Part shown: positions 2,254 to 5,909 of the stretch, piece after piece
Layout: every line of letters starts with the position of its first letter
How positions within the stretch are numbered: position 1 is the first letter of the stretch
Origin: a bacterium
GTDB taxonomy: Bacteria > CSSED10-310 > JAJRTK01
Length of the DNA: 6,060 nucleotides
NCBI GenBank assembly: GCA_024278345.1
Contig: JAJRTK010000516.1
Coordinates: forward strand, 1-6,060
Direction of reading: 5' to 3'
Made by a program: the position numbers and the translations under genes
Notes under the pieces: model-generated
Database searches by the model: none
The model's input: only the letters and a program-made list of their open reading frames with translations
What the model was told of the DNA's origin: nothing

Positions 2254-3516
2254 ATGCGCGAAAAGAGATCCAGCCGGCACATCGTTCTCACGTCCCACCC
2301 AAGCTCCCACGGGCCGAAGCCGATCCCCGTCCGCTGGGGCGCGGCGACGCCCATGGAACGTGGCCCCATCATCGGGACTCTGAGCAATCCGGATCACCGG
2401 AACGTCATCGGGACGCACAATGGCGCTTACGCGCTCTACCGGGCGCTGGCCATCGCTAGCGGAGGACTGGACCCGGAACATGTCCCCGATTTGACCCTGA
2501 CTTCGCCCACCTTCCAGTTCGGGCCCCATCCCCAATGGTCCGAACCCGATGCCATCGTTTCTCTCGACCCTCACGGCGCCATCGTGCGCGCCGCCTTCGC
2601 CGCCTATTTTGAACAGGGATTCGACATTCGGCCCACCATCGCTGTGACTCGGGCGCACATCCACCTTCCCGAACTGGCCAACGCCATTCGTCAGGGACGG
2701 CTCCAGCCGGATGGCAAGCTCCTTCTAGCCAACGGCGACGCGGTGGTGGCCAAGGCGGCCGTGGAACCGGTCTGGCATCTCCCCGGAGTCGCCCGCAGAT
2801 TCGGCATCGAGGAGCAGGTGCTGCGGCGTGCGCTCTTCGAGGAGACGGCCGGGATGTACCCCGAGCTGGTGACGCGACCCGATTTTTCGGTCTTCCTGCC
2901 ACCCATTGGCGGGCTGACGGTCTATTTTTTCGGGGACCCGGAGGCTATCACCGATCCGGCGCGGCCGCTGGCCGTCCGAGTCCACGACGAGTGCAACGGA
3001 TCGGACGTCTTCGGTTCCGACATCTGCACCTGCCGCCCCTATCTGGCCCACGGGATCGAAGTGGCCGTCAAAACGGCTCAGGAGGGTGGCGCCGGGGTCA
3101 TCGTCTACTTCCGAAAAGAGGGCCGCGCCCTTGGCGAGGTCACCAAGTTCCTGGTGTACAACGCCCGCAAACGCCAGAAAGGCGGCGACAGCGCGGACAA
3201 GTATTTCTACTGGACCGAATGCGTGGCCGGGACGCAGGACGTCCGATTCCAAGAGCTGATGCCAGACGTACTCCACTGGCTGGGGATTCGGCGCATCGAC
3301 CGGTTCGTCTCCATGAGCAACATGAAGTACGACGCTATCGTGGGGTCGGGAATCGAGATCGCCGAGCGGATCCGGATTCCCGACGAGCTCGTCCCGGAGG
3401 ACGCCAAGGTGGAGATCCACGCCAAGATGGCCGCGGGGTACTACACCGAGGGGCCGGCGCCGAACCCAGAGAGCCTCTCTAGCGTCGTGGGCCGCGAACT
3501 CAAGGGCGACACCTGA
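2254..3516 (+). CDS. urc1: URC1/urg1-type GTP cyclohydrolase II paralogue (uracil catabolism)
   Basis: The 420-residue protein has the two-part build of the URC1 family: an N-terminal domain (GTP_CH_N type, roughly residues 20-200) absent from ordinary riboflavin enzymes, then a GTP cyclohydrolase II domain (about 215-420). The zinc ligands are intact as Cys247, Cys258 and Cys260, with the same C-x10-C-x-C spacing as E. coli RibA Cys54/65/67. The loop equivalent to RibA's YHRQEGRNIG is YFRKEGRALG (285-294), keeping the EGR triplet at 289-291. RibA's TNNPKK loop is changed to MSNMKY around 354-359, keeping only the Asn (356) and Lys (358). Known from yeast: URC1/urg1 proteins are needed for uracil breakdown and are thought to open a pyrimidine nucleotide ring rather than make a riboflavin precursor. 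Here that role is inferred from the domain layout and from the DUF1688 and upp neighbours. No other riboflavin gene is present. The start follows the ribosome binding site at 2235-2244; the stop overlaps the next ATG by one base, implying coupled translation. Confidence 0.93.
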   Translation: MREKRSSRHIVLTSHPSSHGPKPIPVRWGAATPMERGPIIGTLSNPDHRNVIGTHNGAYALYRALAIASGGLDPEHVPDLTLTSPTFQFGPHPQWSEPDAIVSLDPHGAIVRAAFAAYFEQGFDIRPTIAVTRAHIHLPELANAIRQGRLQPDGKLLLANGDAVVAKAAVEPVWHLPGVARRFGIEEQVLRRALFEETAGMYPELVTRPDFSVFLPPIGGLTVYFFGDPEAITDPARPLAVRVHDECNGSDVFGSDICTCRPYLAHGIEVAVKTAQEGGAGVIVYFRKEGRALGEVTKFLVYNARKRQKGGDSADKYFYWTECVAGTQDVRFQELMPDVLHWLGIRRIDRFVSMSNMKYDAIVGSGIEIAERIRIPDELVPEDAKVEIHAKMAAGYYTEGPAPNPESLSSVVGRELKGDT

Positions 3517-5021
3517 TGCAAGACTGGAATCCAGCACCTGGAGAAGAAGCAGGGGATGTGGTGTCAGGAACCGCGGCGCAAGCCGGCCCCACCGTCCATG
3601 CGGCGCGGTGCGCGGCGGAGGGCAGGTATCCAAAGAGATCTTGCCTTGAGGAACTGCCGCCGGCCCAGCGGGCCGCCATCGAAGAACTGCGGCGGCCCCG
3701 GACGATTCGGGAGCGGTGCCGGCGCCTCCTGGCGCTGGCGGAACAGGGCGAGCTCCGTCACTTCCGTTACCGGAAGGAGCGCCTCGACGAGGCGGCTGAA
3801 CGGGTGGCGGCGGTGGTCCGGGAACGATATCCCGATCTCCGGATTCCCCTCCACAGTCGGTTCCGCCATTTTGAGGCTGGGGGCAAGGACCGGGTGGCGC
3901 GTCTTTGGGCGAAGCTCCATGGAGCGTCGGAAGCGGAACGGGGCCGGAGCCTTGTGGACCTCGTGGTGGTAAGTGTTTTCCTGGATGCCGGCGCTGGCGC
4001 TGCGTGGCGCTATGCGGAGCCAGAGACGGGCCGTCTCTTCACTCGTTCCGAGGGGCTGGCCGTGGCCAGCGTCACCGCTTTCTTCCAGGGGCTCTTCTCC
4101 AGTGACCCGAAGCATCCTTGCCGAGCCGACGCAACGGGCCTCACGGCCATCACGGCGGAGCGACTCGGAGAGGCTTTCCAGGTGACGCCCGAGAATCCCC
4201 TGGCGGGGCTGGAGGGACGGGCGGCTCTGCTTCGGCGGCTGGGAGAAGAGCTTCTCCGGGAAGATCCGACCGGGACGACGGATCCGTGCCGCCCGGGCCT
4301 CGAAGCGGCGGATCCGCGCCAGCCAGAAATGGCGGGAGGGCGGCCGGGGGCCGAATCGGACGCGCGGCGGTCAGAGATGGCGACAGGGCGCCCGGGCCTC
4401 GAAGCGGCGGAGCCGCGGCGGCCCGGGGAACTGTATGATCGCTGGAGCCGCCTTGCGGGGCCTGAGAAATGGCTGCGGGCGGAAGTCATCTTCGGGGACC
4501 TCCTGGCCGAGTTTTCCGGGATCTGGCCAGGCCGGCTCCAGATCGGCGGCGTACCGCTGGGGGATGTTTGGCCACACCCCAAGGCCGGCGGATCCGGGCT
4601 TTCCGGGGGGTTGATCCCCTTCCACAAGCTCTCCCAGTGGTTGAGCTATTCCCTTGTAGAGGCCATGACCCTCCTGGGCTTCCAAGTCCATGGGGTGGAG
4701 GCCTTGACCGGTCTTGCGGAGTATCGCAATGGTGGCTTGCTGCTGGATCTGGGGATCATCGAGCCCCGCCGCGAAGAGATCCTGCAACGCGACTTCCCGG
4801 CATCAGCGGTGGAGATCGTGGAATGGCGGGCCCTCACCGTTGCCGGCCTCGACGAGCTGGCCCCACGCATCCGGAAAGAGCTGGGGGAAGCAGGCAGAAA
4901 CCTGACCATGGCCGAAATTCTGGAGGGTGGGACTTGGGAAACCGGCCGCCGAATCGCCCGGGAGCTCCGGCCCGACGGTCGGCCACCTATCACCCTCAAG
5001 AGCGATGGGACGGTCTTTTGA
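3516..5021 (+). CDS. urc4: URC4/urg3-type DUF1688 protein (uracil catabolism)
   Basis: The 501-residue product is a clear DUF1688 protein. Conserved-looking blocks occur in order: HSRFRHFEAGG (113-123), SVFLDAGAGAAW (153-164), RSEGLAVAS (177-185), NPLAGLEGR (227-235), IPFHKLSQWLSYSL (367-380), LTGLAEYRNGG (397-407), VEWRALTV (435-442), ILEGGTW (468-474) and the C-terminal SDGTVF. No signal peptide or membrane segment is seen, so it should be cytosolic. In yeast, URC4 is essential for uracil use and ribosylurea has been reported as an intermediate of the route. A role on that ring-opened product, releasing urea, is inference. Family members are usually nearer 410-430 residues; this one is longer through an N-terminal extension of about 55 residues and a triplicated segment at 259-305. 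The ATG at 3516 overlaps the URC1 stop and has AAGGG nine bases upstream. A GTG at 3561 with AGGGG ahead of it is an alternative start that would trim the extension. Family assignment is very secure, chemistry is not. Confidence 0.93.
   Translation: MQDWNPAPGEEAGDVVSGTAAQAGPTVHAARCAAEGRYPKRSCLEELPPAQRAAIEELRRPRTIRERCRRLLALAEQGELRHFRYRKERLDEAAERVAAVVRERYPDLRIPLHSRFRHFEAGGKDRVARLWAKLHGASEAERGRSLVDLVVVSVFLDAGAGAAWRYAEPETGRLFTRSEGLAVASVTAFFQGLFSSDPKHPCRADATGLTAITAERLGEAFQVTPENPLAGLEGRAALLRRLGEELLREDPTGTTDPCRPGLEAADPRQPEMAGGRPGAESDARRSEMATGRPGLEAAEPRRPGELYDRWSRLAGPEKWLRAEVIFGDLLAEFSGIWPGRLQIGGVPLGDVWPHPKAGGSGLSGGLIPFHKLSQWLSYSLVEAMTLLGFQVHGVEALTGLAEYRNGGLLLDLGIIEPRREEILQRDFPASAVEIVEWRALTVAGLDELAPRIRKELGEAGRNLTMAEILEGGTWETGRRIARELRPDGRPPITLKSDGTVF
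4290..4430 (+). repeat. Three in-frame degenerate tandem repeats inside URC4
   Basis: Units begin at 4290, 4341 and 4389 (51 and 48 bases apart). Each opens with codons for RPG, followed by an acidic stretch and an Arg/Pro-rich or EMA/EMAT stretch. The first and third units share 23 identical bases (4290-4312 and 4389-4411). Because the spacings are multiples of three, the frame is kept. Only the last unit runs into the family-typical RPGELYD segment, so the first two (residues 259-291) look like an expansion of a loop. Confidence 0.75.
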
Positions 5022-5276: not shown

Positions 5277-5909
5277 GTGAAAAACGTCACCGTTGTCCAT
5301 CATCCGCTCATTCAGCACAAGCTCACTCAGATGCGAAAGAAGGGGACGAGCACGGCGAAGTTTCGCGCATTGCTTCAGGAGATCAGTCTTCTTCTTGCCT
5401 ACGAGATCACCCGGGATTTCCCCCTGACCTACGAGTCCATCGAGACGCCTCTGGAAACGATGGAGAGGGCGCCGGTTCTGGAGGGAAAGAAGCTCGTGCT
5501 GGTTGGAATCATGCGGGCAGGGGAAGGCATCTTGGACGGGATGCTCCAGATCATCCCGTCCGCGCGGGTGGGGCACGTGGGTCTCTACCGCGACCCCACC
5601 ACCCTGGCTGCCGTGGAATACTATTGCAAGCTGCCACGCCAAATGGAGGGGCGCTCCGCCATCATCGTCGATCCCATGCTGGCGACGGGGCACACGGCCA
5701 TCGCCGCCATCACCCGGGTTAAGCAGTCCAGGCCCAAGAATCTCAAGTTCGTCTGTATCCTGGCCTCCCGCCGCGGCATCCAAACCGTGATGGAGGAACA
5801 CCCCGACGTGCCGATTTTCACAGCCGCCGTGGATCGCGAGCTCGACGAACAGGGCTACATCCTCCCTGGAATCGGCGACGTGGGAGACCGGATGTTCGGA
5901 ACCAAATAG
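5277..5909 (+). CDS. upp: Uracil phosphoribosyltransferase
   Basis: This cytosolic enzyme converts uracil and PRPP to UMP and pyrophosphate. The 210-residue product aligns end to end with E. coli Upp (208 residues): N-terminal HHPLIQHKL, a central [14 protein letters not shown] stretch matching the RAG region, the PRPP-binding motif IVDPMLATG at 130-138, and the uracil-binding C-terminal segment [17 protein letters not shown] at 194-210. The start is GTG at 5277, giving an N-terminus that aligns with the E. coli protein, with TAGGA ending seven bases upstream. It differs from E. coli at the second-ligand loop (ASRRGI where E. coli has APEGI). Elsewhere upp serves salvage. Next to URC1 and URC4 it most likely fills the URC6/urg2 role of feeding uracil into the degradative route, though it may do both. 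Its own ribosome binding site and the 255-base gap leave room for separate expression. Confidence 0.95.

Follow-up and report, generated by a model that had tools for sequence, protein, structure and literature searches.

The question raised by this locus is how a bacterium could take uracil apart with three neighboring genes, and in particular what the product of the middle one does. The window analyzed here is the entire contig C462 (6060 bases) of a draft genome of 6.06 Mb that is 87.9% complete, and it carries a URC1-like gene, a URC4 (DUF1688) gene, and upp, the gene for uracil phosphoribosyltransferase. We confirmed that the three genes are a bacterial URC operon in the order URC1-URC4-upp, and we consider it fairly probable that uracil is broken down through the URC pathway on a ribose-phosphate handle, with URC4 acting as a Qng1-like hydrolase. 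The operon type itself is known; the novelty of the analysis is the predicted function for DUF1688.

A bacterial URC operon

All three genes are on the plus strand. URC1 (2254..3516) runs from an ATG at 2254 to a stop at 3514-3516, URC4 occupies 3516..5021, and upp (5277..5909) starts with GTG, 255 bases after URC4. Their products scored far above the curated cut-offs of the respective families, with 737 bits for URC1 (NF005536/PRK07198, cut-off 403), 461 bits for URC4 (PF07958, cut-off 25), and 264 bits for Upp (TIGR01091, cut-off 208), and the solved structural relatives of the upp product were uracil phosphoribosyltransferases without exception. An earlier note on this DNA had described a URC-type operon of URC1-like, DUF1688, and upp genes in one direction at 2254-5909, with the first two genes overlapping by one base. 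This description held in every part: the span was exact from the URC1 ATG to the end of the upp stop, and in TGATG the last base of the URC1 stop is also the first base of the DUF1688 start.

URC1 has an alternative in-frame ATG at 2218. Two features favor the start at 2254: AGGAGAGG precedes it, and the promoter-like match upstream (2190..2219, plus strand, GTGACG-18-TAAAAT, 9/12) has its −10 hexamer ending at 2219. This match is to the consensus only and carries no evidence of function. No RNA elements above the Rfam thresholds were found in the window.

URC4 is predicted to be an N-ribosidase related to Qng1

A sequence search gave no solved relatives of DUF1688, and BLASTP of a DUF1688 protein against a Qng1 protein was not significant, so the link was visible only by profiles and folds. 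An AlphaFold2 model of the window URC4 (4-sequence alignment, mean predicted local distance difference test score (pLDDT) 69) aligned to bacterial Qng1 structures across about 306 residues, sharing 20% identity, with Z of 19.1-19.4; endonuclease III, the next fold, had Z of 7.8. The model of a homologue without the insert described below (L039; 3-sequence alignment, pLDDT 78, predicted template modeling score 0.81) matched Qng1 with Z of 21.7 and a root-mean-square deviation of 3.4 over 297 of 319 residues, again followed by endonuclease III (Z 8.9). Taken together, the URC4 models matched the Qng1 fold with Z of 19-21.7 over 297-308 residues. In Foldseek, Qng1 matched with E values of about 2e-7 to 1e-5, and every other match was at 0.6 or worse. 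Profile comparison by HHalign, which does not depend on folding, gave 95.4% when ten DUF1688 proteins were set against six of Qng1 and 94.7% over 275 columns for a second DUF1688 set, while the controls with the Upp and URC1 alignments gave 0.1% and 0.5%. These models and profiles point to URC4 as a predicted N-ribosidase related to Qng1. The DUF1688-Qng1 link was not found in the literature searched, which says little on subscription journals.

The HHalign pairings also indicated candidate active-site residues. FHK371LSQ of URC4 was paired with FYK199RAQ of Qng1, AE402YR with AD231YK, and VEWRALT (residues 435-441) with VEIRAAT; on the plus strand of the window, the Lys371 codon is at 4626..4628, the Glu402 codon at 4719..4721, and the VEWRALT motif at 4818..4838. 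Lys371, aligned with Qng1 Lys199, is invariant, and K371, Q374, E402, Y403, R438, and T441 were identical in 39 of 39 rows of the DUF1688 alignment besides one orphan (these rows include the window itself and one locus twice, and many are closely related). According to the PDB titles, the Qng1 mutants K199C (7u5a) and D231N (7ulc) were crystallized with queuosine and queuosine-5′-monophosphate. The orphan DUF1688 is in Kaistia terrae (L040:5998-7170), where neither URC1 nor upp lies within about 6 kb of it; it has lost K371, E402, Y403, and W437, and an early stop removes the conserved C-terminal end. Such decay is what relaxed selection after partner loss would give, as far as a single case can tell.

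Several points weigh against the reading of URC4 as a Qng1-like hydrolase in a working URC pathway. Asp231 of Qng1 is replaced in URC4 by the invariant Glu402. The window protein reached only 13.8 bits against Q_salvage/Qng1 (PF10343), whose gathering cut-off is 25, and 3 of 6 homologues likewise gave sub-threshold matches. The models were built on 3-4 sequences, with partly low confidence in the region before K371, and a common fold does not settle the reaction. Beyond URC4 itself, neither urease alpha nor an allophanate hydrolase over cut-off was found in the 87.9%-complete draft genome. Because the PF10343 cut-off is not reached and Asp231 is not kept, URC4 is best said to work like Qng1 and should not be called a Qng1.

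The glutamate in place of Asp231 and the unreached Pfam cut-off, together with the pairing of URC1 and URC4 throughout, would also suit a non-catalytic or differently catalytic Qng1 relative, for example one that stabilizes or channels the URC1 products while another enzyme frees urea. However, the lysine, glutamine, acidic residue, tyrosine, arginine, and threonine of the Qng1-type motifs are invariant and active-site-like, and we regard a role of this kind as very unlikely. The earlier note had called the biochemistry of DUF1688 largely open, and Pfam still lists it as a family of unknown function, but the fold and profile evidence now indicates a putative N-ribosidase. The Qng1 link thus provides DUF1688 with a class of reaction, a likely substrate, and candidate residues for the active site, so that one purified protein would be enough to test the urea-releasing step.

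The window URC4 also contains an insert of about 46 residues (4284..4421, plus strand, about amino acids 257-302), rich in Arg, Pro, Gly, and Glu, which is absent from the relatives aligned. It was modeled at low predicted confidence and is probably a disordered loop. The insert holds two 35-nt copies that are 91% identical and 99 bases apart, which suggests a tandem duplication in a loop.

URC1 as a predicted UTP cyclohydrolase

Across 413 alignment columns, URC1 shared 65% identity with PDB 7eev/7ej3, deposited under the name GTP cyclohydrolase II (GCH II). It keeps the three cysteines C259, C270, and C272 (numbered from the 2218 start), which are spaced as in the GCH II zinc site and identical to those aligned in 7eev. 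We take 7eev to belong to Zhang 2021, on UTP cyclohydrolase. That paper is cited for URC in a passage of PMC12507026. The best explanation of the sequence is a predicted UTP cyclohydrolase of the GCH II type. An ordinary riboflavin GCH II was considered and rejected, since the 737 bits with PRK07198 stand against 48-57 bits with the RibA models. A separate RibA-like locus is present on contig C107 of the same genome, which means that riboflavin synthesis need not rely on the URC1 gene.

Proposed route from uracil to urea

As is known for its family, Upp would convert uracil and phosphoribosyl pyrophosphate (PRPP) to uridine monophosphate (UMP), general kinases would raise UMP to uridine triphosphate (UTP), and URC1 would open the uracil ring of UTP. 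By analogy with GCH II, URC1 would also release pyrophosphate and leave a 5′-monophosphate. The three-carbon (C3) part, uracil C4-C6, would depart presumably as malonic semialdehyde and leave 5-phosphoribosylurea, whose N-glycosidic bond URC4 would cut with water to give urea, formed from uracil N1, C2, and N3, and ribose 5-phosphate, which could be reconverted to PRPP. An N-ribosidase is proposed for URC4 because the step from ribosylurea to urea requires one, and a phosphorylated substrate is proposed because queuosine-5′-monophosphate is the main substrate of Qng1 (PMC11592518; also the title of 7u91), which would fit a phosphorylated product of URC1.

The fold and linkage evidence is equally compatible with a URC4 of Qng1 fold that cleaves an earlier ring-opened ribosyl intermediate still bearing the C3 part, so that a ureido-C3 compound leaves before free urea is formed. 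In Lachancea kluyveri, however, ribosylurea is reported to be an intermediate from which URC4 produces urea (PMC7530994), and we think cleavage at the earlier step unlikely.

The neighbors of URC1 in other bacteria gave a hint at the fate of the carbon. Among ten loci examined in the phylum of genome G035, nine had an aldehyde dehydrogenase gene immediately upstream of URC1, the tenth (in G060) being the exception, and all six upstream dehydrogenases that were scanned exceeded the cut-off of TIGR01722 (CoA-acylating methylmalonate-semialdehyde dehydrogenase). Genes of this type lie upstream of URC1 at L058:4057-5535, at L060:1830-3302, and in L073-L079. The TIGR01722 family also accepts malonic semialdehyde. 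The upstream (methyl)malonate-semialdehyde dehydrogenase therefore supports the proposed C3 product. In the window itself, the upstream neighbor of URC1 is a divergent ABC-transporter remnant, with no dehydrogenase adjacent. In its detailed form, we lean a little towards the view that URC4 forms a branch of its own within the Qng1 superfamily, with Glu for Asp231, and hydrolyzes 5-phosphoribosylurea, that PRPP is a recycled handle, and that the C3 part goes to acetyl-CoA via the linked dehydrogenase in many bacteria.

Conservation and gene order in other bacteria

The bacterial linkage of the URC genes was already known before the present analysis. Conservation of URC1 and URC4 in bacteria is stated in PMC3869809 and PMC2174524, the former addressing their linkage in a passage that cites Andersen 2008, and “URC4/urg3 family protein” is a name already used in bacterial annotation. 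Plasmids of Azospirillum, Pseudoroseomonas, and Gordonia carry genes annotated as “GTP cyclohydrolase II” and “URC4/urg3 family protein” followed by upp, and a Cupriavidus locus and the remaining intact loci had the order URC1-URC4-upp as well, which means that this order was seen in Proteobacteria and Gordonia. In the phylum of G035, URC1 and DUF1688 co-occurred in the identical 52 of 146 genomes, and their listed coordinates placed them side by side in 52 of 52 (in one of these, G089, the contig end falls within URC4). Chance clustering of URC1 and URC4 was rejected on this co-occurrence with adjacency. The linkage of the three families in one order, on which the earlier note had relied, recurred in distant bacteria. 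A search for phage carriage of DUF1688 gave no match.

Two of the other loci had further genes nearby. Downstream of the URC genes on the Azospirillum plasmid (L035:10963-16973), we found a BMP-family protein, ABC transporter genes, and an amidohydrolase, possibly for nucleoside or nucleobase uptake. In G060, whose URC operon is divergent, upp is followed by a uridine kinase gene (L059:4067-4663), which would give a second entry, from uridine, into the URC route.

Nitrogen recovery and other uracil routes in the genome

The earlier note had also concluded that this bacterium can open uracil as a nucleotide and recover its nitrogen, by a route separate from Pyd and Rut. The URC operon supports the opening of uracil as a nucleotide, but recovery of the nitrogen is doubtful, for N1 and N3 would both end in urea and neither of the urea-splitting enzymes named above was found; urease was present in most other URC-bearing genomes checked. 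Because no urea-splitting enzyme was found, the role of URC here may lie in recovering carbon or disposing of pyrimidines more than in supplying nitrogen. Provided that the draft represents the genome well, the URC route in this organism would yield carbon and excreted urea, not nitrogen.

As for the other two routes, RutA over cut-off was not found in the genome. The absence of Pyd genes, which the earlier note had put forward as a check, did not hold. One PreA-like dihydropyrimidine dehydrogenase scored 403 bits (cut-off 335; 330 of 422 model positions covered) and lies near NCS2-permease open reading frames (ORFs) and a C-N hydrolase, and a dihydropyrimidinase on a different contig scored 585 bits (cut-off 393). 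A reductive (Pyd) uracil route is likely in this organism, judging by these genes. Next to the PreA-like gene, two overlapping ORFs (L069:2518-3959) make up the NCS2 permease, which is split by a frameshift or a sequencing error.

DUF1688 was absent from all seven other genomes examined in the phylum of the window, and horizontal gain of the operon would fit this absence, though the sample is small. With the Pyd-type genes, the urease that was not found, and the odd insert in URC4, the same absence would also fit an operon that was recently acquired or is little used here, with uracil going mainly through the Pyd route. Yet the three frames are open and the invariant motif residues are kept, unlike in the decayed Kaistia orphan, and we consider an idle operon improbable. 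The co-existing Pyd-type genes are in any case a caution against taking URC as the sole uracil route of a genome.

Flanking sequence of the window

Upstream of the operon, on the minus strand at 190-1802, there are two partial ABC-exporter ORFs. The first holds only the second half of a nucleotide-binding domain and the next only a transmembrane domain. Upstream, the nucleotide-binding domain lacks its first half, and it is preceded by GC-rich, terminator-like hairpins with T runs after them. These partial ORFs may reflect rearrangement, decay, or an assembly fault. Positions 133-163 hold a 31-base stretch that contains the inverted repeat CCCGTTGC-N8-GCAACGGG. Contig C140 of this genome has the stretch again close to its right end, and it is perhaps a dispersed repeat where the assembly breaks.

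Comparison with known systems

The closest known system to URC4 is Qng1/DUF2419, the queuosine-5′-monophosphate N-ribosidase (7u07, 7u91, and 7ugk), which has its fold in common with the URC4 models over 297-308 residues (Z 19-22) and whose Lys199 and VEIRAAT motif have aligned counterparts in URC4. Unlike Qng1, URC4 has Glu for Asp231 and extra elements, stays below the PF10343 cut-off at about 20% identity, and would release urea where Qng1 releases queuine as the base. The HhH-GPD DNA glycosylases (endonuclease III, AGOG, and OGG1) have a broad fold likeness to the URC4 models, but it is much weaker than that of Qng1, and their Z of 7-9 may reflect a mere common arrangement. For URC1, the known counterpart is the UTP cyclohydrolase 7eev/7ej3, with 65% identity and the GCH II-type cysteines kept, and no feature was found that sets the window URC1 apart.

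At the level of the whole pathway, URC1, URC4, and URC6 of L. kluyveri and urg1, urg3, and urg2 of Schizosaccharomyces pombe are the same three protein families as in the operon of the window. The window differs from yeast URC in that its genes form a bacterial operon, in a genome without a detected urea-splitting enzyme. Some bacterial relatives differ further from yeast, which is reported to yield 3-hydroxypropionate, in having a CoA-acylating semialdehyde dehydrogenase next door.

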